The notes below the pieces were generated by a model, which did not search any database, was not told the origin of the DNA, and saw only the letters and a list, made by a program, of their open reading frames with translations. Positions 13,090 through 26,593 of a stretch of DNA of 37,089 bases are shown here, piece by piece. Made by a program: the position numbers and the translations under genes. Where the stretch lies: the IMG/VR virus record IMGVR_UViG_3300009537_000072, positions 1 to 37,089 of that record. One strand, 5' to 3'. The stretch is from a virus. How positions within the stretch are numbered: position 1 is the stretch's first letter; every line of letters starts with the position of its first letter.

Positions 13090-13815
13090 TTAGTAATCGT
13101 ATCCAATAATTCTGACTCCAAGGCGACTGCCTGAGCCGAATGTCACATTGCTACCAACCCTGAGCGCGAAGCTCTGGTTAGTGTTTCGTATCCTGACAGT
13201 CCTTTTGACAGTAGTTGCCGCCGCGATAATAGCTAAATCTACATCGTCCGCAGGGGGCAGTGGGTGATGCCCGTCTTCCGCGCCTGAAAAATTTGACGCA
13301 TCCCTGATTATTACAGCGTTTGCATCGCTATATCCGCTCCTCTGTGGGTGATGCACAACCGCCGCAGTTGTGTCAATGTAGAACGTAAGCTCCAAATCCA
13401 GGAACCGCGAACCGTATTCTGGGTAAGTAGCGACATTCCTGTCTTCTGTGGAGCTATAATTAAAATTAGCTCCTGCGGTGAGAGGTATAATAGTGAAAGC
13501 AGAGTCATTCGTGGCGTCAACAGCGTATGAGCCGCTTAGGTCAATACTCATGTGCGTGTTTTCAGAGTCTCGCGTACTGTTCCCGCTGTAAACACACCAT
13601 TTACTTGACGCCGTTCGGCTTATTGGATAGCGTATTCTCCTGCCTGGGATTATAGAGTAATCAGATTCTCGTTCGCCGTCAGAACCTGAATGGTCCGTGG
13701 AGTTAATGGCTGTTGCCATATTATCCAACTCTGTCGTCAGCTTTGTACCGTCGATTACCTTCCCGTTTTCAAGCCAACGGTCTGTAAGGTCGTATGCCGG
13801 TGTGTACTCAGACAT
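13090..13815 (-). CDS. Fibre-like structural protein, 241 aa (paralogue of next gene upstream)
   Basis: This protein shares a distinctive motif with the upstream-transcribed neighbour (13808-14461): HHPQRSGYSDANA followed about 15 residues later by DGHH and then ADDVD. Both have an N-terminal helical region with a TELD/DELD core followed by beta-rich sequence and a C-terminal strand ending in IRIIGY or IRTIGY. I take them as products of a tandem duplication. The role is probably a tail fibre or decoration subunit. I chose ATG at 13815, which overlaps the upstream stop by 8 bp; the in-frame TTG at 13824 is less likely. The AGGA site is weak, so coupling to the upstream gene is likely. Confidence 0.75.
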   Translation of the reverse strand: MSEYTPAYDLTDRWLENGKVIDGTKLTTELDNMATAINSTDHSGSDGERESDYSIIPGRRIRYPISRTASSKWCVYSGNSTRDSENTHMSIDLSGSYAVDATNDSAFTIIPLTAGANFNYSSTEDRNVATYPEYGSRFLDLELTFYIDTTAAVVHHPQRSGYSDANAVIIRDASNFSGAEDGHHPLPPADDVDLAIIAAATTVKRTVRIRNTNQSFALRVGSNVTFGSGSRLGVRIIGYDY

Positions 13816-14461
13816 AATACCCAATCGTCCTAATGTTAAGTCTTAGTTCAGTTGTGGGCGTACCTACCGCATTGGCTCCAGCCCAATAGGATATCTTTCT
13901 TGTGGTATTATCAACCTGTAATATAACCTCTGCGTAAAGCGCGTCACTCGCACCGACAGAGCGGTCCACATCGTCCGCGATTGAGTAAATGTGATGCCCG
14001 TCAGCCACACCATCACCATCTTCAAGCATAAAAAAAGCGTTTGCCGTGGCGTACCCAGCTCTTTGCGGGTGGTGGATTGTGCGAGTGCCGCCAGAGCCGA
14101 CCCTTAATGTGACCCCAAGCCTGACCGCATTAGCAAGCTCTGAGCCTGCAAAAGCATCGCCGGTAGCGTCAAGCGTGATATCCGTTACGGCCCCGACCGT
14201 CAAGCCGACACCTCCGCTCCCAACGGTCTGATTGTTCCCCGCATCTGCACCGTTCACTACGGTTACAAATTTGCCGTAAGCGTTATCCGCCGAAGCATAG
14301 GACACCTTATAGCCGGAAGCAAACACAAGGTCGCGCTTGCCGGAATATATCTGGTCATTATAATTATGAGCAGACGCCGCCCTGTCAAGCTCGTCTCGCA
14401 GAGCATCGTTGTCGATAGTGGCCCCAGATGTTGGGTTGTATCCTCGTACCCATTGACTCAT
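13808..14461 (-). CDS. Fibre-like structural protein, 217 aa (paralogue)
   Basis: This is the companion of 13090-13815. The shared block reads HHPQRAGYATANA, then DGHH and ADDVD, and the C-terminus LRLNIRTIGYYV matches the partner's ending. The N-terminus differs: here MSQWVRGYNPTSGATIDNDALRDELDRA looks like a short helical hook, as used to attach fibres, followed by beta-rich sequence with many Gly/Asn turns. Start and upstream stop overlap as ATGA. The two copies have diverged strongly at the DNA level, so the duplication is old or the pair was acquired together. Receptor binding is possible but unproven. Confidence 0.75.
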   Translation of the reverse strand: MSQWVRGYNPTSGATIDNDALRDELDRAASAHNYNDQIYSGKRDLVFASGYKVSYASADNAYGKFVTVVNGADAGNNQTVGSGGVGLTVGAVTDITLDATGDAFAGSELANAVRLGVTLRVGSGGTRTIHHPQRAGYATANAFFMLEDGDGVADGHHIYSIADDVDRSVGASDALYAEVILQVDNTTRKISYWAGANAVGTPTTELRLNIRTIGYYV

Positions 14462-14997
14462 TGCGATATCACCCTATCTGAAATGAGGCATGAAGAATAA
14501 ATCTCATCTGCCGTGGTTCGTATTTCATGGCATGTGCCTTGCTCCATGCCGTACATGCACACCGCCGCCAGCTTGTCCGTACTATTCATCGAACGCGCAG
14601 GCGTACTGCCGTCATTCCATAAACCCCACGCCGCAAGGTCCGTAAGCGCGGCGGCGGTAAGGTTGTTACCGTTGGAAAGGATAAAAAGAATCATAATGCC
14701 TTCTGCATAGTCTTCCCAATCGGTCATATCAAAATCGGCACACAGCCCGACAAACCTAGCGTGTCCTGAAGGTCTGTGTGTATGCCTGTTAATGACATAC
14801 GCGCTCATCTCACCAGACGACGAAATAGTATAATCGTAGCCATTCGGACCAATCTTACCAAACTTCCTGTCATTACTATCAAAACCAACCACAGAAAAAG
14901 CAATGCCAGGAGGAAGGCCGAGCGCAACCGCTTCAGCCATCTTATGGTCGCCTGCCGCACCACGGTCCTCCGGTTTAATATGAACGCGCCTATCCAT
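14458..14997 (-). CDS. Late protein, 179 aa, unknown
   Basis: I do not recognise this protein. It has an N-terminal charged part (MDRRVHIKPEDRGAAGDHK), a mixed middle with GFDSNDRKFGKIGPNGYDY and a C-terminal half with five cysteines. The region MILFILSNGNNLTAAALTDLAAWGLW is the most hydrophobic but looks like buried helix rather than a membrane segment. I place the start at ATG 14997, which overlaps the nozzle gene's stop (ATGGATAG) and has GGGAG upstream. The longer in-frame reading to 15072 would lie inside the nozzle gene. It is probably a tail or fibre component by position. Confidence 0.68.
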   Translation of the reverse strand: MDRRVHIKPEDRGAAGDHKMAEAVALGLPPGIAFSVVGFDSNDRKFGKIGPNGYDYTISSSGEMSAYVINRHTHRPSGHARFVGLCADFDMTDWEDYAEGIMILFILSNGNNLTAAALTDLAAWGLWNDGSTPARSMNSTDKLAAVCMYGMEQGTCHEIRTTADEIYSSCLISDRVISQ

Positions 14998-16963
14998 TGG
15001 GTCCACTCCCGTAGGTGGGTGCGCCGAAGTCGCGTTCAGCGTTATAGACAAGCTCAACACTATGCAACACAAACCCCGTAGGCTGTGCTATGGAAACGGT
15101 TGCGCTTGTGCCGCCTGATGCCTGTGTTATTGTTACCGACTTATCGCTCCCTGCATCGACTTCACAGCCAACGCTAACGATGCCGGATATCACCCTTTCG
15201 CCTGAGTCAATGACAAATCTCTTTCTCGCCCTACCAACGGATGTGTTATAGACTGCATCCTCGGTTGCAACGGTTCCATACTGGTTACTATCTTCGCCAG
15301 CTTGCCTGAAAGCCCATGCCTTCGGGTTAGGGTTGGAGTCAGCGTATAACTGCAAGTCAACATTCCAATCCCCTATCGGCTCCATCTCATATATTACTCC
15401 AGTCAATCTTTTCACAACACCTGGAGAACCCATATCCAAATCCTGCGCCTTGACTTTAGTTCTAAATGCGCTTCCCAAAGAAACCATATCGTAGTGGTCA
15501 TAATAGTTGGAGGCGGTAGAATTATTAGACTTCATTCTCCACCAAAGGTCATGGTCATCGGTACCGGCAAACAGCAGAACAATGCCGCCACTTCTCATTA
15601 GCGCACGCTGAGTATTATTAAGATAAAACATCCTCAAATCAATGCCGCTATTGATAGAGGCAAAAGTATTCCCAACCCCATAAATATCGTAATAGTCGGC
15701 AGAGCTTATCTTAAATCCGTATTCCAACTCACCTGCCCATCGGTTAAGGAAATAGTCATACACCAACCCCAGCGTTTTATTATTCCCAGGAGAAGGCCAA
15801 AGAACCGCAAGATACCCAGGCTCATCCATGCGGGTTACAATCGCACTTTCTATCTGTCCTGCGGTTAGTTTCTTCAGGGTTGGCGCAACGGGGTCACTGA
15901 CCGTCTGAGAGGATACACCGTCCGTCAAAACCAACTCCCCAGAGGCCGTGATAAAAGCCAGCATACCGGATGAATCTCTTGACTCCGCTCCTCCTACGGA
16001 TGAAGAGATATATTCAATACCCTGTCTTGATGGACAACCCACATCAAATACCCTAACAAGCCGCGTGCTGGAGCCTTCTCCTGTGTTACCACTGAACCTC
16101 CACACCGACTTGCGAGTGAATATATAAACTGAGTCGCCAAAACTAATCAAACTGCGTATGTCATCTCCAGAGCCACTCCCAATCTTTAGGAAGTTGTTTG
16201 TTTCGTCAAATGTAAAATACTGGGGCGCTCCTTCTGGCGTCTGGTTCAGACTGTAAAATACAAAGTTTGGCGCTTCATCATTAACATAAAACGCCTGCCC
16301 TCTGTGGATAAGAACGATGGCGGACCTTGCTACAATGTCTAAATGGGCAGGGTCCATACCTGCCATTGAAACAGCCGCTATATCTAATGTCACCTCTTCA
16401 GTTTCGCGCATTCTTTGCAACAACCCGCCTGTCGTAAAAAACGTTTCCTTGTATGCGCCAGGAGAATACCCAACAGACGAAGAATCGTAACTGGCGTGTG
16501 AGAACGACTGCGAACCAGAATACGCCGCCTGCTCGTCAGTGCTGTCTGCAAGATGCCTCATGTTCGTGCCTTTCATGTAGGCTGAGGCATTAAGAGTTCT
16601 GGCAGACTGCGACCTTGTGAGCATCTGCCCGTCTGATGTCATAAACGAGAAATAATAATCAATACCTCCCGATGTGTTCCTGCACTCTATAGGCACAAAG
16701 CCATTAATATCGCATTCTTCTGGCGTGTCTATAGTCGTGGTGACATAATTATTGATGAGCGACGGGATTGCGCTTTCCCATACTCTTGTTGTGTTCTGTG
16801 ATGCTCCAGGGGCGAACTTGGCGCTGGGCCTTCTGCGCACAACGGCGTCCCTCCCTATGATGCAGTTCAGGCATTCATAGGCGGAATCATCAGCGGCAAC
16901 CGGCTTCCCGCGCTTGTCCAGGTGCGTGAAGATGATGCGTTTTCGTTGTCCGTCTTTCGGCAT
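14990..16963 (-). CDS. Probable tail nozzle / tail-tubular-B-like protein, 657 aa
   Basis: This large beta-rich protein follows the adaptor gene, as the nozzle or tubular B protein does in short-tailed phages. Its middle carries repeated beta-propeller-like signatures: SLISFGDSVYIFTRKSVWRFSG near residues 265-287 (phage propeller proteins typically have such a GDSVYIFT-KS-V-x-F pattern), then SGMLAFITASGELVLTDG and LVYDYFLNRWAGE. These resemble the P22 gp10/T7 gp12 class in architecture, though sequence identity cannot be judged here. The N-terminus has a CxxC (ECLNC). TGATG overlaps connect it to the adaptor gene, and ATGGATAG connects it to the next. Confidence 0.75.
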   Translation of the reverse strand: MPKDGQRKRIIFTHLDKRGKPVAADDSAYECLNCIIGRDAVVRRRPSAKFAPGASQNTTRVWESAIPSLINNYVTTTIDTPEECDINGFVPIECRNTSGGIDYYFSFMTSDGQMLTRSQSARTLNASAYMKGTNMRHLADSTDEQAAYSGSQSFSHASYDSSSVGYSPGAYKETFFTTGGLLQRMRETEEVTLDIAAVSMAGMDPAHLDIVARSAIVLIHRGQAFYVNDEAPNFVFYSLNQTPEGAPQYFTFDETNNFLKIGSGSGDDIRSLISFGDSVYIFTRKSVWRFSGNTGEGSSTRLVRVFDVGCPSRQGIEYISSSVGGAESRDSSGMLAFITASGELVLTDGVSSQTVSDPVAPTLKKLTAGQIESAIVTRMDEPGYLAVLWPSPGNNKTLGLVYDYFLNRWAGELEYGFKISSADYYDIYGVGNTFASINSGIDLRMFYLNNTQRALMRSGGIVLLFAGTDDHDLWWRMKSNNSTASNYYDHYDMVSLGSAFRTKVKAQDLDMGSPGVVKRLTGVIYEMEPIGDWNVDLQLYADSNPNPKAWAFRQAGEDSNQYGTVATEDAVYNTSVGRARKRFVIDSGERVISGIVSVGCEVDAGSDKSVTITQASGGTSATVSIAQPTGFVLHSVELVYNAERDFGAPTYGSGPNG

Positions 16964-18405: not shown

Positions 18406-19644
18406 TTAGTCGCCCACGTTGGTGCAGAGGGCGTGATTGCCGGTCGAGCCACCGATAATCTGAGGACAGCATCGAGCGATAATCTGCGCCTTGGCGATAG
18501 AATCGTCGTTGTCCTGCTGGTCGAAAGCCCAGGTCGGCTTGCCGTTCGCCACCTTCTTACCGGCGCGACACGGAGCGTAACGCATACAAATCTTGTCTTT
18601 GTTACTCGCGTCGAACAGGTAGATGGTGTTGTCGCCAACATCATCCAAAACGTCTTCGCCGTGGATGTCAATCATGATGCCGCCAAGATTGATGGTCTTG
18701 ACATGCAACTTAATCTCTTCCGGCAGCTTGTCGTTGAAGATGATTTGGTTCTCGTACATGGAATTGAACTGCTGGGTAATCGAGGTCGGCATTACCATCA
18801 CGCCGTGAGTCGATTTGGAAATGGTCCGCCAGTTCGTCACCCAATTACGGAAGAAGCTCTTGCTCATCGGGCTACCGGACAGGTTGGCGTTTACCGTACC
18901 GTTGGTCAGGTAGGTACGCGCACCGCCGAAGATGGGCAGAGTGTTGTTGGTGACGGTGGGATATCCCCTGTCCTGAAGGAAGAACGCGGACAGCATCTTC
19001 CGACGAAATCGCTCCTCGGTGAGAGCCATTTGGTGGTCCCACTCGCTGAAGTTGCTCTTGCCGTGGATGGCGCTGTAGGAACGCATCGTCTCCGACATAT
19101 CCAGAGTCTCGCTGAAGATGGACAGATAGTTCCAGTAGTTGGACCGGCTGTGCATCGTGGACTCATGGCTTCGGCTACGCTCCTCGCGGGACGGAATCAG
19201 CAGTTGCCAGGTGTCGTTGTCGTTGATGGTCTGAGCGGAGCTAACCGACTCGCCCACGCCACGATAGCCAAGCGTGACTTGGTTATTGGCGGTATCCACT
19301 TCGGTCACAATGACCTGCTCGGCGGTACGGGTATTGCGGGCAACCGTACCCGTAACCCATCGCTCGACATTATCGACATCCATCGCGCCGGTGGCGGCGG
19401 GGACCGTGGAGCCGTTCACATCGGTCAACGGCATCAAAGTTTCCTCGTCCCAGATAATGCGAGGCGACTTCGCAGGTTTCCAGTTCAAGGTGGAGAGATA
19501 CGCATAAAACGTACTCTTGGTGATGTCTCTGTTAAAGATATCCTCGGACCAATCATCGTGGTATCTACTTGTATTGTTAGTGGCGTCGGAGAGGTCAGGA
19601 AGGTTTAAGCCTCCCGCTCCGAAGTAGTTATAGTCAAGAGCCAT
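18406..19644 (-). CDS. Major capsid protein (SU10 / DUF5309 type), 412 aa
   Basis: This is the main shell protein, expected to adopt the HK97 fold. The N-arm contains KSPRIIWDEETLMPL (about residues 59-73), followed by DNVERWVTGTVARNTRTAEQ, then TLGYRGVGE, and a long helix with NYWNYLSIFSETLDMSETMRS, an order typical of the DUF5309 capsid family. The latter half has a beta-strand region with HVKTINLGGIMIDIHGE and a C-terminal domain with several cysteines. The AAAGGAGAACTAACTG leader precedes the ATG. The same leader is duplicated upstream of the 81-codon gene. Placement after the scaffold gene and abundance-type leader support the assignment. Confidence 0.85.
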   Translation of the reverse strand: MALDYNYFGAGGLNLPDLSDATNNTSRYHDDWSEDIFNRDITKSTFYAYLSTLNWKPAKSPRIIWDEETLMPLTDVNGSTVPAATGAMDVDNVERWVTGTVARNTRTAEQVIVTEVDTANNQVTLGYRGVGESVSSAQTINDNDTWQLLIPSREERSRSHESTMHSRSNYWNYLSIFSETLDMSETMRSYSAIHGKSNFSEWDHQMALTEERFRRKMLSAFFLQDRGYPTVTNNTLPIFGGARTYLTNGTVNANLSGSPMSKSFFRNWVTNWRTISKSTHGVMVMPTSITQQFNSMYENQIIFNDKLPEEIKLHVKTINLGGIMIDIHGEDVLDDVGDNTIYLFDASNKDKICMRYAPCRAGKKVANGKPTWAFDQQDNDDSIAKAQIIARCCPQIIGGSTGNHALCTNVGD

Positions 19645-19715
19645 CAGTTAGTTCTCCTTTAAAAGTTGGTTACGCTGACTTCTTCTTTACCGCCTTGCGA
19701 TAAGCCTTCATTTGC
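19642..19715 (-). repeat. 74-bp direct repeat, copy 1 (scaffold 3' end + capsid leader)
   Basis: Bases 19642-19715 match 19902-19975 with a single mismatch (19645 versus 19905) at an offset of exactly 260. The unit contains the last 15 or so codons of the scaffold gene, its stop, the AAAGGAG leader and the ATG trinucleotide. Copy 1 feeds the capsid gene; copy 2 feeds the 81-codon gene. Inside copy 1 the scaffold codons are read out of frame as the tail of the 81-codon gene. Confidence 0.95.
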
Positions 19716-19904
19716 GCCGGTGGCGGCGGGGACCGTAGAACCGTTCACGTCGGCCAACGGCATCAAAGTTTCCTCGTCCCAGATAATGCGAGGCGACTTC
19801 GCAGGTTTCCAGTTCAAGGGGGAGAGACGACCAAAATACGTTCTCGTAACGACTTCACCTTCACAGACAAGGAAAAGGTCATCGAAGTAATTGTCAGGAG
19901 TCAT
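19659..19904 (-). CDS. Mosaic 81-aa ORF built from terminase, capsid and scaffold pieces
   Basis: The gene has an intact ATG with the duplicated AAAGGAG leader and an uninterrupted frame. Residues 1-19 come largely from an antisense copy of the TerL nuclease 3' region. Residues 27-64 reproduce the capsid N-arm nearly unchanged. Residues 65-81 are the scaffold C-terminal codons read in another frame. It inserts a 260-bp block between scaffold and capsid genes without damaging either. It may be a recombination scar that happens to be open, or a small product carrying a capsid N-arm that could interact with capsid or scaffold. Because its translation signals copy those of the capsid, it is likely translated. 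A chimeric assembly is possible but less likely, since the copies differ by silent changes. Confidence 0.6.
   Translation of the reverse strand: MTPDNYFDDLFLVCEGEVVTRTYFGRLSPLNWKPAKSPRIIWDEETLMPLADVNGSTVPAATGANEGLSQGGKEEVSVTNF
19714..19827 (-). repeat. 114-bp duplicate of the capsid N-arm coding region
   Basis: This block matches 19385-19498 in the capsid gene at an offset of 329, with only about six scattered mismatches. It encodes residues 27-64 of the 81-codon gene, which match capsid residues 50-87 with two changes (Thr to Pro and Thr to Ala). Most of the other base changes are silent, so the donor seems to have been a related functional capsid gene rather than a freely drifting copy. 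Weaker protein-level similarity continues a few residues further upstream. Confidence 0.93.
19848..19887 (+). repeat. 40-bp inverted copy of the TerL nuclease gene 3' region
   Basis: Read on the plus strand, these 40 bases encode NDFTFTDKEKVIE. They match, in inverted orientation, bases 23204-23243 of the TerL nuclease gene (NDFTFTDEEKVIE) with three mismatches, two of them silent and one Glu to Lys. In the 81-codon mosaic gene the stretch is read antisense as part of its first 20 residues. Confidence 0.88.
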
Positions 19905-19975
19905 TAGTTAGTTCTCCTTTAAAAGTTGGTTACGCTGACTTCTTCTTTACCGCCTTGCGATAAGCCTTCATTTGC
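19902..19975 (-). repeat. 74-bp direct repeat, copy 2 (true scaffold 3' end)
   Basis: This is the partner of 19642-19715. Here the scaffold codons are in frame and end at the genuine scaffold stop (19930). The leader and ATG at the end of the unit start the 81-codon mosaic gene. The near-identity of the copies suggests a recent event or continuing homogenisation between them. Confidence 0.95.
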
Positions 19976-20838
19976 TGGCTGAACGAGGGAGGCGGACGAA
20001 ACTGTGCCATAGGGTCGATTTGCTTTTGGCCCTGAAACATCGCATTGTTGGGAAACGCAGTCGCCATGCGCCCCTTCGTGCGGTCCTTCATTGCCTCTTG
20101 GCCGTACTGGAATAGCTTGTCGTTCATGGAACCCAACACGCTATCGACAACCTGATTGAGCCTGTGGCCCGTCACCAGGTTGGTTCGGTTGTCAACATCC
20201 AGAGCGCGTCGGGCGTCATCGGGATTGCTCAACCGTTGGGACAGGGCTTGCCGAAACTCGCCCCGCACATTGTCGGGAATGCCGTACTTGTCCAACGTCT
20301 GCTCCATATACCCCTGCGCTTCCTGCGCCGCTTGGTTGAGGAAACGGGCATTGTCGTGCTGGACGATAATGGACTGTTGCTCGGCATACCGAGACTCAAT
20401 CTCCTTCAGTCGCTCGGCCACTTCCACATCCTTGCGTTGCAAAGCGGGAGCGACGATTTGAGCAACAAAGCCAACCGGATTGTTTTCCAACAACTCCCGT
20501 TGTTCTTCCGGCGTAAGCTGACGCTGGGGAGGTGGCGCGGTCTGGGTAGGGCGTGAAGCCGACTCCTTCAAAGCCGCCATCGACTCGGCAAGCAACTCCT
20601 GGGAGCGCAACGAACGCTCCTCAATAGCCGCCATACGCTCCTCGTAGGGGCGTTTGGCGGCGTAGTCCTCTGCGGGGGGAGCCTGGACTTTAGGTTCTTC
20701 CGGCTCAGGCTCGTCCACTTCCGGCTCGTCGTCCTTGTCACCCTTCCAGATGGGACCGCCGATATCCTCCTCCACCAGAGAAGCGATATCCTCTTCTTCT
20801 TCCAAGCCGTCGTTAAAAATCAGGTCGTCATCAGGCAT
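19930..20838 (-). CDS. Scaffolding protein, 302 aa
   Basis: The protein has the composition of phage scaffolds: a very acidic N-terminus (MPDDDLIFNDGLEEEEDIA), a Pro/Glu-rich linker, long coiled-coil helices with many Gln/Glu/Arg residues, and a short basic C-terminal helix (MKAYRKAVKKKSA) of the kind that binds the coat protein. It lies just before the capsid gene in transcription order. I chose ATG at 20838, with AAGGAG 5-6 bases upstream; the in-frame ATG at 20853 would put that signal inside the coding region. It overlaps the upstream 131-residue gene by 8 bp. No protease gene was recognised nearby, so cleavage of the scaffold is uncertain. Confidence 0.85.
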   Translation of the reverse strand: MPDDDLIFNDGLEEEEDIASLVEEDIGGPIWKGDKDDEPEVDEPEPEEPKVQAPPAEDYAAKRPYEERMAAIEERSLRSQELLAESMAALKESASRPTQTAPPPQRQLTPEEQRELLENNPVGFVAQIVAPALQRKDVEVAERLKEIESRYAEQQSIIVQHDNARFLNQAAQEAQGYMEQTLDKYGIPDNVRGEFRQALSQRLSNPDDARRALDVDNRTNLVTGHRLNQVVDSVLGSMNDKLFQYGQEAMKDRTKGRMATAFPNNAMFQGQKQIDPMAQFRPPPSFSQQMKAYRKAVKKKSA

Positions 20839-21226
20839 CGTAATCTCCTTCAATGTTGGGTATTAGGTCAGGGTTAAGCATGTAACCCAAATCCGGTATG
20901 GCTCCATCGGGATTGATAAAGCCGTCTGATTCATTCTCGTAATAGGTCGCAAGGCAAGCCTCAACAGCGTCACGCACATTCGCCAACACCACCTGGATAT
21001 GCGGCAGGCTGTTGCGCATGTCCTCATGGTCGGCAGTCGTCTGACCCGTAACGGCTTTGTAGGCATACCCCTCAAACTCGCCTTCGATGATATTGAAGAT
21101 GGTATCCAAGGCCGCCTGGGAGCATCCGTTTTCCAAGATGGACCCGCGCTCATACAGCAAGTTGGGGTCCACGTTGCGCTCCATCCTCTCAGGGGGACGT
21201 ATGATATGCGGTCGCACTTGCTTCAT
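20831..21226 (-). CDS. Hypothetical protein, 131 aa, between portal and scaffold
   Basis: I do not recognise this protein. After a basic, Pro-rich start (MKQVRPHIIRPPERMERNVD) it becomes helical with an alternating acidic pattern; the C-terminal part is acidic with Pro and Asn (NPDLIPNIEGDYDA). Its start overlaps the portal stop as ATGA and its end overlaps the scaffold start, so it is tightly coupled to head genes. A portal-associated or scaffold helper role is the simplest inference. No protease or decoration motif was seen. Confidence 0.7.
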   Translation of the reverse strand: MKQVRPHIIRPPERMERNVDPNLLYERGSILENGCSQAALDTIFNIIEGEFEGYAYKAVTGQTTADHEDMRNSLPHIQVVLANVRDAVEACLATYYENESDGFINPDGAIPDLGYMLNPDLIPNIEGDYDA

Positions 21227-23142
21227 TGCACCATCCCTGGGTCGGGCGGGGCCGCAGGCGGGGTCGCTTGCGTCTCGCCAGCCTCAAACATTTCAGACCC
21301 TTGCGGAGCCATCTCTTGCGTAGGCATCGCTTCGGGACCGGGTTGTTGCGGCATCTGCGGTTGTTGCATCATCATCATGCGGTTGATATAACCCTGATAC
21401 GCGCCGCGAATAAGGGATACCAGCTTGTCCTTACCCGGCACTTCGGAAGCCGCAACTTCCCTCAACCTCAACTCCATCTGTAGCTGTACGGCTTCGATGA
21501 TGGCGTCCTGCGCGGGTTGCGCACCTATCCAGGGGTCGGCCATCAAGTTCTGGATAAGCCCGGTAATCTGCTGTTGCACATACTCCCGAACAGCCAACCC
21601 GCTTGAGCCGGTAGGCACAAAGTCAAAGCTGTTCGCCGCAAGGGTGGTGAAGAAGCTGGGGCCAATCTGGATTTGAGGCATGTTGTTGGAGTCGCGTGCC
21701 TCCACCAAAAACTGAGACTCCACAAGTTCCAGAGGTACATACCGGCCTTCGACGGGTACTTGCACATACTCGTCCATCAGATGCTTGTACATCAGGAAGT
21801 CGATACGGGCCGACCTTGCGATACAGTCCTGACCCCAACGCTCATTCTCCAAGAAGTAGCGCATACGGGATTCGGATATCTGCAACGCCTGACCGCCGTA
21901 GGTATCCTGACGCTGGGCGGAAGCGCCAACCGACAGGACCGATTGCCCCGCCGCTCGCTCCGTGTAGTCGATTACACGACTCTGCAACTCCCTGCCCTCG
22001 TTGCCCATCTGCGGTTGCTCAAAATTCATAACCACATCTTTGAGCAACTTGCCGGGAGGCAGGTCCACAGGGATGCTCTTATCGGGACCGGGGATGAAGT
22101 CTTCCATCTTCAGGCCCGTAGTCTTATCGAATACGCGCATCCGGTGTACGGACAGTACCGCGTTATCCTGGTAAGCTCCCTCGTAGGCGTTAATGGATTC
22201 CTGCAAGGAGGCCAACGTCTCCACCAACGAATGGCCGACAAGGAAGTCGCCATGCGGCTTGAACTGCCAGCAGGTAAACGGCTTCTCATGGATGATGTTA
22301 TCCCTCTGCTCCAACATCACCTTCTTGCTGAAGTAGTCGATGATGCAGGTGTAGTCGTCATCCCACCATTCCAACCATACTAACCAGGGGTCTTCATCGT
22401 TGTAGATATTGCTACGGTAGCGGTCTTTGAATAGCGGTCCCGCCATCCCCAGCGAACTGTAGATATCGTCTATGGTGTAACCCTTCTCGGCTGCGCTCAA
22501 GCCCAGCCCAGGGAGAGAGTCTTTTTTCAGTGGCGCACCCGCGTCAATCATATCCTCAACATCCGACCGCCGCAGTACGCGCCACTGAATAAGCGGGGTG
22601 TCCTCGAACCTGGGTTTCGTCGGGTCCCAAACGAGGTCAAGCGGTGATGTACGCCTCCATTCTGGCCGGTCCTTGTAGGGCAGTCCGTTGGCCGCAAGTT
22701 CGATTTCCCACGCGCCCTTCTCAAACCCTACGCCCCACAAGAGGCTGTCGAGCGCGGCCATTTCAGCGGCTCGCCGTCTATGGGTTCGCATCCAGTTGCG
22801 TGCGATTACGTTCTCTGCGATTTCGCCCTTTAACTCGTTCTCGATGGAACGGGTATCTGGCCTCGCATGGAATGGAGGGTCGGTGGCAAACAACGCCTGC
22901 ATGTGTCTTGGCAATTCGGTGTCCACCACCCAATAAACCAGAGGCACATTGACGTTGGCGCGGTAGGGGTCAATCCGGCTGGGAGGCCGGTATCCCCAAT
23001 ACAGCCGCAGGAAATAGGCCCACTTGCGATGGTAGTTGTTCTCGATAACTCCAAGCCAATCCTTGAAAGTATCGTGAACATACTCGCCAAGCTCGCCCGT
23101 TCTCGCCTTCTTCTTATTGAACTTTCGGAGTATGGATGCCAT
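21223..23142 (-). CDS. Portal protein, 639 aa
   Basis: This is the ring protein at the unique vertex through which DNA enters and leaves. Portal-like features are the N-terminal basic segment, the region with WAYFLRLYWGYRPPSRID, a wing-like domain with EWRRTSPLDLVWDPTKPRF (near residues 160-180), a strand-rich part with FTCWQFKPHGDFLVGHSLVE, the helical stem and loop around VMNFEQPQMGNEGRELQS, and a C-terminal Gln/Met/Pro-rich tail. The length fits portals of short-tailed phages. It follows the TerL nuclease half with a TGATG overlap, as the portal normally follows the terminase gene. Confidence 0.88.
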   Translation of the reverse strand: MASILRKFNKKKARTGELGEYVHDTFKDWLGVIENNYHRKWAYFLRLYWGYRPPSRIDPYRANVNVPLVYWVVDTELPRHMQALFATDPPFHARPDTRSIENELKGEIAENVIARNWMRTHRRRAAEMAALDSLLWGVGFEKGAWEIELAANGLPYKDRPEWRRTSPLDLVWDPTKPRFEDTPLIQWRVLRRSDVEDMIDAGAPLKKDSLPGLGLSAAEKGYTIDDIYSSLGMAGPLFKDRYRSNIYNDEDPWLVWLEWWDDDYTCIIDYFSKKVMLEQRDNIIHEKPFTCWQFKPHGDFLVGHSLVETLASLQESINAYEGAYQDNAVLSVHRMRVFDKTTGLKMEDFIPGPDKSIPVDLPPGKLLKDVVMNFEQPQMGNEGRELQSRVIDYTERAAGQSVLSVGASAQRQDTYGGQALQISESRMRYFLENERWGQDCIARSARIDFLMYKHLMDEYVQVPVEGRYVPLELVESQFLVEARDSNNMPQIQIGPSFFTTLAANSFDFVPTGSSGLAVREYVQQQITGLIQNLMADPWIGAQPAQDAIIEAVQLQMELRLREVAASEVPGKDKLVSLIRGAYQGYINRMMMMQQPQMPQQPGPEAMPTQEMAPQGSEMFEAGETQATPPAAPPDPGMVQ

Positions 23143-24398
23143 CAGTATTGAGCTCCGCAGTTATGGAATGAGGCGAGTTCGTAGAACAGGCTATAGTCGT
23201 TTCCTTCGATAACCTTTTCCTCGTCTGTAAAGGTGAAGTCGTTCTTGCCCAAGTTGACGTTGGGCATTCCCGTCTTCACTTCCTTCTCCCATTTGTGGGT
23301 GTTATGGACCAGGTCCGTAACCGTATCCATCAAATGGCTGTAATCGTTCTTATCCGGTTTCTCTGGCAGTTTGACGTTACCCTTGGAGTCCATCGCCCAG
23401 TGGTAGCCGCCGATAAAGCCTGCCAACAACCCGCCCTTTTCACGCGCTTGCATCAGGCGGGGCTTCCCGCTTTGCGGGATAACGTATCCATGATTCTTCA
23501 GCTTCAGCCGCACTTCGCCTTCCGCGTCGGGGAATAACAAGGCGCGAGTCTTCTCAATCTTTTCCTCTACCCTGAAGCCGGTCATGTACTTCGGTCGCCA
23601 TCCAAAATTGCGCAACCATCGCTCGTCGCTGATACCCGTCTGGTTGGAACGTTGCTTCATCGCCGGGTCGCCGTAGCACACCAGACGCCCTTCACTCTGC
23701 AACGCCCTAAGAACTTCAGGGGTAGGCTCCTTCTTGGATAGGTCCATCTCATGGAAAAACTCATGCTTCAGGATGAAGTGTACCCATTTAAACATCTGGC
23801 TGATATGCGCGTTATCCCCAAGGATTTCGCACAATACGCGCAGACGCCGCTTGGAGTCCCACTGGCTGAAGGTAACGGCGGAATGCCGCATACCTGGGTC
23901 GTAGCACATCAGCAACGGTTCTTCCGGTAAAAACTTCAATTCCAAATCCACATGGTCTTCTTCGGTAAACTCAGGGAAGATGCGCGGACCAGCGGGACCG
24001 TCGAAGTCAATCTCGTATAGCTGACGCCATTTGGTGGGACGCCCGTAGTAGGACGCCATCTCCTGACGTTGCCATTTAGGATTCAGGTCGGGGTTCTTGT
24101 CGGGGTCACTGGAATAGTGAACGAACAAAACCCCGACCCGATTTCCCTTATTCAAGACAAACTTAACGCCTGAGTCGAATTGATGCGTAGGGATGGAACC
24201 CATCGTCGCGTTGCATTCGCACTCAAAGCATTGGTACTTGTCCGCGTCTTCGTCTCTGTGGCCCATCCTGTTAAGCGCAGGCTCAAAGGAGGCGCGACAC
24301 CACACGGTATCCTTATCGCACTCTTTACAGTAGTGCGTAAGGACGCCGTAGTCGTCCCGCTCCAGGTCCTTGCGCTTGATGGTAACAGGGTTAGCCAC
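23142..24398 (-). CDS. Terminase large subunit, C-terminal nuclease half, 418 aa
   Basis: This gene encodes only the nuclease part of a large terminase. The RNase H-like active site is visible: Asp167 in LLMCYDPG, Asp244 in CYGDPAMK and Asp358 in YSHLMDTVTDLV. Before it, VLFVHYSSDPDKN and WRQLYEIDFDG are the usual linker motifs between ATPase and nuclease domains. No ATPase motifs are present; they lie in the separate gene 25889-26593. The N-terminus carries two CxxC pairs (Cys24/27 and Cys57/60), a probable zinc ribbon, which could be a docking module for the ATPase half. GTG start with AAGGAG upstream. Forty bases of its 3' end are also found inverted in the mosaic gene. Confidence 0.88.
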   Translation of the reverse strand: MANPVTIKRKDLERDDYGVLTHYCKECDKDTVWCRASFEPALNRMGHRDEDADKYQCFECECNATMGSIPTHQFDSGVKFVLNKGNRVGVLFVHYSSDPDKNPDLNPKWQRQEMASYYGRPTKWRQLYEIDFDGPAGPRIFPEFTEEDHVDLELKFLPEEPLLMCYDPGMRHSAVTFSQWDSKRRLRVLCEILGDNAHISQMFKWVHFILKHEFFHEMDLSKKEPTPEVLRALQSEGRLVCYGDPAMKQRSNQTGISDERWLRNFGWRPKYMTGFRVEEKIEKTRALLFPDAEGEVRLKLKNHGYVIPQSGKPRLMQAREKGGLLAGFIGGYHWAMDSKGNVKLPEKPDKNDYSHLMDTVTDLVHNTHKWEKEVKTGMPNVNLGKNDFTFTDEEKVIEGNDYSLFYELASFHNCGAQY

Positions 24399-24406
24399 GA
24401 TACTCC

Positions 24407-25444
24407 TTACTCGCTGACGTAGGTAATACGCACATCAAAAAGGTTGTACGCATCGTCGGCATGGGTGCCGGGGGCGATGGCGATACCCAAAACGCTTGCG
24501 GCGTCAGGAACGTCCTCCGCCGCGACCGTCGCCGTTACATTCTCTGGGGTTGTCGCGTCCGTAAGGTTCCCGGTTGTATCCGATACGTTGGCCGCGAGGA
24601 CCGTGCCAGCGACCGCCCAATTGGTCAGAACCGTAAACCCGCTGGCAGATGAACCTGTGTCATCTTTCGCGGCGAGAATGGTTACCGTCACATTGGACGC
24701 CCCACTGAAGTTTGCAGGGAGAGCCACGCCGGAACAAATGACATCCGCATTGCCCGCCGCCCACTGGATAGTAGGCAACGCAATCGTGTCGAGAGTCGTT
24801 GTGCCGCCCTTCAAGATAGGGGTGGTATCAGAAGCCAAGATACCACCAGAACCATCAGCGGCTCCAACCGCCGCATCGGGAACATCGCCATCGGCATCGC
24901 ATTCACGGAAGGTATGCAACGGGATCGTAACTTCGTTGATATTCCCGTAAATCTGGTCTAAGGCGTTGGCGACGGTCGCGGCGGCGGTTTGCGAACCGCC
25001 ATCGTCAAAGCCGATGAGGTTGCTTCCCGTGGTGGCGGTGTTCTCGGAGACCAACTCCAAAAGGCATTCGTCCAAATCCACGCAGTCCTCAAACGCGGCG
25101 GTCATCGCCGTGGTCGCGCCGATGATGGCCGCGCCCTGGTCGTTGTCGCCAGCCGCGCCAAGCTCAATCAGGCAATCGCTGACGTTGGTGCAGGCGTCGT
25201 AAGCTCCACCAGTGATATCAGTGACATCAACACCAATGCTACTTGCTCCATCAGCGGCATTGGTGACGGCGTTAAGGTTGTCTTCCATGTCATCGAGCGC
25301 ACGACACATATCCAACCCGTTGTCGAGAATGCCGAACTTGCGTTTGCAAGCGGCTTCCATTGCGTCGGTGAAATAAGTGCCTGCAAAAACAGGGGCGGTC
25401 ATAAGAAGGATGACGCCCAAGGCAGTGAGTAAGATTCGTTTCAT
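24407..25444 (-). CDS. Secreted or exported Cys-containing repeat protein, 345 aa
   Basis: The first 21 residues (MKRILLTALGVILLMTAPVFA) form a textbook Sec signal peptide with a cleavage site after VFA. The mature protein holds an N-terminal helical part with repeated modules. Two copies (about residues 60-80 and 95-115) share a CX5C-L-x-E-L pattern with GAAIIG and GSNLIG endings. A third, TVANALDQIYGN, lacks cysteines. Modules of this LxEL type recur in phage fibre proteins. The C-terminal 150 residues are beta-rich, Thr/Ala/Val-rich, like an adhesin or fibre domain. It sits between the two terminase genes, which is unexpected. An AGGAGA site supports the ATG. Confidence 0.75.
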   Translation of the reverse strand: MKRILLTALGVILLMTAPVFAGTYFTDAMEAACKRKFGILDNGLDMCRALDDMEDNLNAVTNAADGASSIGVDVTDITGGAYDACTNVSDCLIELGAAGDNDQGAAIIGATTAMTAAFEDCVDLDECLLELVSENTATTGSNLIGFDDGGSQTAAATVANALDQIYGNINEVTIPLHTFRECDADGDVPDAAVGAADGSGGILASDTTPILKGGTTTLDTIALPTIQWAAGNADVICSGVALPANFSGASNVTVTILAAKDDTGSSASGFTVLTNWAVAGTVLAANVSDTTGNLTDATTPENVTATVAAEDVPDAASVLGIAIAPGTHADDAYNLFDVRITYVSE

Positions 25445-25469: not shown

Positions 25470-25889
25470 TTAGGCGTCCTCGCCACTAACAAGCACTCTT
25501 GGATAGCAATCGACATCCGGCGTGTTATCCGCCGCTACCATAGTCAAGGTGTCGATTCCCAAGTCGGCATCGTCGAAATTCGCCGCGAGATACAGGTTGC
25601 ACAAAGGCGCGGCTCCAGGCGTCACCGTCAGGTCTTCTCCATCCGGCGACAACATACAAACCAGCTTCGGGCTTACAATCCCGCCACTGCTATTGGAATG
25701 GGCCGCAGCCGTAGTCACCGCCAACCCGTCCGCATCCGTACCGCCATCGGCAACCTTATGGTCGGTGGAGGTATGCATATCCGCGTTAATCGTCTTGCTG
25801 ACAACCAACGGCTTTGAGGTCAGGTTGCCATTCTCGTCCTTCTGCTCGATTCGCAGAAACAACTCTACGGTCTGTACCTTTGCCGCCAT
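25470..25889 (-). CDS. Beta-rich small structural-type protein, 139 aa
   Basis: The sequence has alternating strands (VQTVELFLRIEQKDENG; PLCNLYLAANF) with Asp/Gly/Thr-rich loops and no membrane or enzyme motif. This is typical of a decoration or minor structural protein. Its ATG shares a base with the TerL ATPase half stop (TAATG), and GGAGGT within the end of that gene is its ribosome site. With the exported protein gene it forms the pair inserted between the two terminase halves. Function not identified. Confidence 0.7.
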   Translation of the reverse strand: MAAKVQTVELFLRIEQKDENGNLTSKPLVVSKTINADMHTSTDHKVADGGTDADGLAVTTAAAHSNSSGGIVSPKLVCMLSPDGEDLTVTPGAAPLCNLYLAANFDDADLGIDTLTMVAADNTPDVDCYPRVLVSGEDA

Positions 25890-26593
25890 TAGTGCAAACC
25901 TCCATACGTTCCAGTCGTTTCCTTCTGTACGTCCTTACATAGACGATAGAAGTCCTCCTGACCCTTGGGGGTGGAGGTAATCAGAATACGCTTCGCCATC
26001 GGTACGGCTGCTTCGTATCTGTCTCCGAAGTCGGATTGACGGCTTGCTTCGTCAAACCAGACAATGCTTGCCTGATACTGGTGAAGTTGCTCCTCGCCTT
26101 CGGGCAACCCGCCGATAAAGGCGGAATTGCCGAATGTGATGAGGTTCGCCGCCGGACTGGCTGGCACGCGCTCTTTCAACCATGACGGCTGATTGTTGTA
26201 GATGGACCAGCAACGGCCCCTACCTGTGTACTCGCCCGTCTCCGTCTTCTTCTTGGTATGCTGCGCTCCGCGATACACGATGTACGCGGAGTCGTCGCCC
26301 TTCTTGTTCACCACAAGGATTTCCGCCCCAGGGTTGAACATGGCGTAGTGGACACAGAACGCGGACGCCTCCCAGGTCATGAGCATCTGCCGCGTCTTGG
26401 GGATAGCCACATGCCGGATGGAGTCATTCGCCAACATCTTGCAGATGAGGAGGTTGTACGCCTTATCCGGCATGTGCTGTTTCCCGCGTTCCTTGTCGAA
26501 GCTAAGGCAGTAATCGCCCTTGAACCGCCAGTACAGGTAGTCCCTGCAACGGTCAAACTCTCGGTCGTAGTCGATGTCCCGCCTAGCCGTCAT
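25889..26593 (-). CDS. Terminase large subunit, N-terminal ATPase half, 234 aa
   Basis: This gene encodes the motor part of a large terminase. Motifs in order: a deviant Walker A, PKTRQMLMTW at residues 65-74, of the kind seen in gp2-like terminases; the Walker B strand SIVWFDEAS at 176-184 with Asp181 and the catalytic Glu182; and the coupling motif ITSTPKG at 205-211. The protein ends about 20 residues past that, just where a normal terminase would continue into the nuclease domain. The missing half is the separate gene 23142-24398. The Walker A lacks the usual Gly, which is family-typical rather than a sign of decay. The ATG shares a base with the upstream stop (TAATG). Confidence 0.87.
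   Translation of the reverse strand: MTARRDIDYDREFDRCRDYLYWRFKGDYCLSFDKERGKQHMPDKAYNLLICKMLANDSIRHVAIPKTRQMLMTWEASAFCVHYAMFNPGAEILVVNKKGDDSAYIVYRGAQHTKKKTETGEYTGRGRCWSIYNNQPSWLKERVPASPAANLITFGNSAFIGGLPEGEEQLHQYQASIVWFDEASRQSDFGDRYEAAVPMAKRILITSTPKGQEDFYRLCKDVQKETTGTYGGLH

Follow-up and report, generated by a model that had tools for sequence, protein, structure and literature searches.

A 260-bp block of duplicated and inverted late-gene pieces upstream of the capsid gene of an uncultured tailed phage: a candidate recombination or template-switch scar

In classical phage mosaics whole genes or domains are swapped at collinear places. Red-type systems are efficient in recombining DNA that is strongly diverged (PMC2327257). 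Templated insertions made by microhomology-mediated template switching are described mainly from eukaryotic genomes (PMC8421209, PMC11724301). Chimeras are also formed in vitro during multiple displacement amplification (MDA); more than 85% of these are inverted, and more than 70% have 2–21 nt of complementarity at the junction (PMC1855051). A 260-bp block in an uncultured phage, flanked by the scaffold-position gene and, directly downstream, by the gene for the major capsid protein (MCP), was compared with these systems.

The window, meaning the whole stretch of DNA analyzed, was the 37,089-bp virus record IMGVR_UViG_3300009537_000072, classed as linear in IMG/VR. Its minus strand carries a tailed-phage late region consisting of TerL, portal, scaffold-position and MCP genes. 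The MCP gene (18406-19644, minus strand) was intact, coded for 412 aa and matched Pfam PF17236 (SU10_MCP, E = 5e-10), while a search of solved structures with the MCP sequence gave no match. The gene at 19930-20853 (minus strand) codes for an acidic, coiled-coil-like product that had no family match; a scaffold role was assigned to it tentatively from position and sequence character. As listed, this open reading frame (ORF) starts with TTG at 20853, and an in-frame ATG preceded by GAAGGAG is present at 20838. A RecE-like exonuclease (376-1293; phrog_434) and a RecT-like annealing protein (1456-2298; phrog_148) are encoded on the plus strand.

TerL was apparently split. The ATPase half (25889-26593, minus strand) covered phrog_2 positions 275-417, and the nuclease half (23142-24398, minus strand; phrog_2, E = 2e-5) covered positions 423-605 and started with a cysteine-rich, zinc-finger-like stretch. 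Two genes were located between the halves, at 25470-25889 (139 aa) and 24407-25444 (345 aa, with a signal-peptide-like start).

The neighbouring genes at 13090-13824 and 13808-14461 (minus strand) resembled diverged paralogues, with similar starts (DRWLENGKVIDG... and VRGYNPTSGATIDN...) and HHPQR[SA]GY..AN in both. A 25-nt start region, GCCGCGAAAGGAGAGAAGGGATGAA, was 72-100% identical at four early genes on the plus strand (33972, 34331, 34693 and 36642); it takes in the tail of the gene in front (...AAKGEKG) together with the ribosome-binding site, a pattern that would fit duplication or exchange of small gene cassettes.

The block was examined on the minus strand with a repeat finder, ungapped comparisons and blastn, and the three strongest repeats of the whole window fell within it. 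Its position and the 260-bp repeat spacing agreed with the preliminary description of this DNA, and the pieces were far beyond chance. A direct repeat, previously given as 74 bp with one mismatch, was real; on alignment it was exact over 70 nt (19646-19715 and 19906-19975) and extended to 83 nt with 3 mismatches. The upstream copy (19906-19975, minus strand) holds the scaffold 3' end with its stop, followed by the leader and ribosome-binding site of a chimeric ORF. The downstream copy (19646-19715, minus strand) contains the leader of the MCP gene; its scaffold-derived portion, read in another frame than in the scaffold gene, supplies the C terminus of the chimeric ORF. A copy of MCP codons 50-87 was located at 19714-19827 (minus strand); against the resident sequence at 19385-19498 it had the expected 114 nt, with 5 mismatches rather than about six (blastn, E = 7e-50). 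The 40-nt inverted copy of the TerL nuclease 3' region was found as claimed, at 19848-19887 on the plus strand against 23204-23243 on the minus strand, with 3 mismatches; pure coincidence was rejected for this piece (E = 2e-10). Pairwise alignment of the three segments showed the earlier account to be accurate to within a few bases.

Global alignment of the leader and chimeric ORF with the leader and MCP gene, followed by shuffle tests, revealed MCP-like sequence on both sides of the TerL piece. The first codons of the chimeric ORF (19884-19904, minus strand) were homologous to MCP codons 1-8 over 21 nt, with one codon missing and 3 mismatches (shuffle p = 0.0005). A diverged segment of 18 nt after the TerL piece (19828-19847, minus strand) reads TRTYFGR against TKSTFYAY of MCP codons 42-49 and is one codon shorter (shuffle p = 0.003). 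The order in the block is thus leader, MCP start, inverted TerL piece, MCP codons 42-87 and a jump back to the scaffold end. An origin from neighbouring late genes, as first proposed, was upheld; since both segments flanking the TerL piece align to MCP, the block reads as one duplicate of the MCP 5' end whose interior has been replaced, and not as three independent fragments. These alignments are most simply described by a tandem duplication running from the scaffold 3' end through the leader to MCP codon 86, with codons ~9-41 (about 33) of the upstream copy apparently swapped for the inverted TerL piece.

Boundaries between the segments, each clearly homologous to other genes, were sharp, as in a phage mosaic recombination scar. 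The block also resembles scars of the Red/RecT type (PMC2327257) in having late-gene segments out of context, a divergence of several per cent and a phage-encoded exonuclease and annealing protein. It differs from phage mosaics in being a partial tandem duplication that also holds a short inverted piece from another gene. Rearrangement scars of such a kind are to be expected in phage genomes; for its 260 bp, this one has an unusually rich anatomy.

Five nucleotides (CTTCG) at junction 1 occur both in the MCP start and in the antisense strand of TerL, and two (GC) are shared at junction 3; the exact position of junction 2 could not be fixed. All pieces lie within 4 kb of one another in the same genome, the TerL source being 3.3 kb away. 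A short piece copied from a few kilobases away, here inverted, with junction homology of a few nucleotides, is also what the template-switch reports describe (PMC8421209, PMC11724301). For the block such a mechanism is a candidate, and its TerL copy, unlike such insertions, is 7.5% different from its resident template.

MDA chimeras likewise contain an inverted segment from a few kilobases away joined at short complementarity, which is their signature (PMC1855051), and the flanking repeat was exact over 70 bp. Accordingly the main rival explanation is that the block is a chimera produced by whole-genome amplification or by assembly of a multi-strain sample, and that no real phage carries it. 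Several strains may have been in the sample, because the record is classed as linear and has no near relative among cultured phages. Intramolecular MDA chimeras, however, copy the same molecule (PMC1855051), and copies from one molecule would be identical. Here 5 of 114 positions differed in the MCP piece and 3 of 40 in the TerL piece, and the adjacent MCP-like segments differed strongly, so that identity with the resident template was confined to the 70-bp repeat. A chimera of two strains would escape this identity test, but an artefact would then need a second strain and no fewer than three junctions within 260 bp. An artefactual origin was considered rather unlikely, though the strongest of the rivals.

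The differences between copies were examined by codon. Three of the five in the 114-nt MCP piece were silent, falling to 4 of 9 over a 117-nt stretch that extends into the diverged edge. In the TerL piece two of three were silent in the TerL frame, a frame that is meaningless in the inverted copy. For the core pieces together (MCP and TerL), 3 of 8 differences were non-silent against ~75% expected under neutrality, and 7 of 8 were transitions; with the diverged MCP edge added, 6 of 12 were non-silent and the silent excess had p = 0.055. The earlier statement that the differences are mostly silent is thus weakly supported. As a sign of selection it was down-weighted on these figures. The further argument, that the differences speak against simple assembly error and suggest a related-phage donor, was reasonable but statistically weak. 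The pattern gives a weak hint that the pieces may have diverged as working genes in a relative.

Divergence was also uneven: the 70-bp leader repeat was unchanged, the MCP and TerL pieces together had 8 changes over 154 nt, and the MCP-like segments beside them had many more. Parts of the block seem, on these counts, to have different histories. Every piece comes from genes of this genome within 4 kb, and a single event might have duplicated the leader, the MCP 5' end and the TerL piece within the phage itself, after which the upstream copy drifted neutrally. Drift should hit all parts alike, however, and the changes ranged from none in the repeat to segments near the limit of alignability; a mosaic source fits this uneven spread better than uniform drift after one duplication. 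In addition the TerL amino acids were kept at two of three differing sites despite the inversion, although the numbers are small. Self-duplication could still be saved by gene conversion of the leader repeat at a later time, but it was judged improbable.

The 81-codon open frame claimed for the block was real (19659-19904, minus strand; product MTPDNYFDDLFLVCEGEVVTRTYFGRLSPLNWKPAKSPRIIWDEETLMPLADVNGSTVPAATGANEGLSQGGKEEVSVTNF). Its leader, AAAGGAGAACTAACT(A/G)ATG, is a perfect copy of the capsid ribosome-binding leader, so translation of the frame would be plausible if it were transcribed; a search around the block turned up neither a sigma-70 consensus promoter nor a terminator. The MCP-derived part stays in the MCP frame, and the TAA stop directly abuts the ribosome-binding site of the downstream MCP gene. 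These features could favour a functional gene, in which an 81-aa truncated capsid N-terminal segment tunes or interferes with capsid assembly, or in which reading of the leader alters MCP translation. When the junction phases of the same pieces were varied, however, 18 of 27 combinations kept at least 62 open codons; the TerL antisense piece was open in two of three frames, as was the MCP piece. The open frame is therefore not evidence of selection, and it was no longer than expected from the pieces. The product moreover ends in out-of-frame scaffold sequence. Single-sequence AlphaFold models, made with no alignment, were too poor for a fold search; the low mean pLDDT of 42 for the chimera would count slightly against a function, but is uninformative because the intact MCP scored 30 under the same conditions. 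A functional gene was considered very unlikely on this evidence. Very little credence was likewise given to the idea that the frame is a newborn phage gene, seen soon after its origin, whose putative capsid fragment would modulate the phage's own assembly or poison that of a competing relative.

A close relative of the phage was sought in several collections. None was found in IMG/VR through the MCP, the TerL nuclease half, the TerL ATPase half, the portal, the tail gene at 14990-16963, the chimeric protein or a degenerate DNA pattern of the TerL piece; none in GTDB genomes by MCP or portal; and none in phage records (tblastn, distant blastn) or plasmids. Because the single-protein scans depend on exact 8-residue word matches, they would miss relatives with less than roughly 60-70% identity (an estimate). 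The TerL ATPase half had distant matches only, with at most 24% identity among the matches listed, and a DnaB alignment comprised 80 distant helicases with ≤38% identity among the matches listed. When 43 records were tested for the MCP protein none matched; one of them matched SU10_MCP by family profile only and was too distant to help. A donor genome for the block was likewise not found in these viral contigs, genomes, phage records and plasmids. As searches with its head and tail genes detected no close relative in IMG/VR, GTDB genomes, phage and plasmid records, the phage appears to belong to a sparsely sampled lineage; a lack of matches in these scans, which may leave out records very similar to the window, is not proof of uniqueness.

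The reading preferred here, with a rough probability of 0.55, is that the block is a recent, probably non-adaptive recombination or template-switch scar that involved a close relative. The leader and MCP 5' segment would have been tandemly duplicated, and MCP codons ~9-41 of the upstream copy replaced by the 40-nt inverted TerL copy. Most of the upstream copy would have come from, or passed through, a genome about 5-7% diverged, for instance that of a co-infecting relative. The route would most likely have been strand annealing or template switching at short homologies, such as the 5-nt match at junction 1, during phage replication. Formation of the block was possibly helped by the phage's own RecE and RecT. 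Phage-driven recombination is plausible because homologues of both are encoded, and the original suggestion that a RecT pathway made the block can be taken as far as plausible and no further.

Because exact 70-bp repeats flank the unit, the block is predicted to be easily deleted again. Repeats of this length 260 bp apart in a RecET phage should often recombine and remove it, and its persistence would mean a recent origin, selection or a mixed population. If the block is an artefact, methods that detect chimeras among records of uncultured viruses could usefully be tested on it. If it is real, it would be a clear snapshot of phage late-gene rearrangement, in which 260 bp combine a duplicated part, a templated piece in inverted orientation and a source diverged by several per cent. 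It would then also show how new small open frames, complete with working translation signals, can emerge as a by-product of rearrangement, and would caution against taking every intact small ORF in a late operon for a gene.
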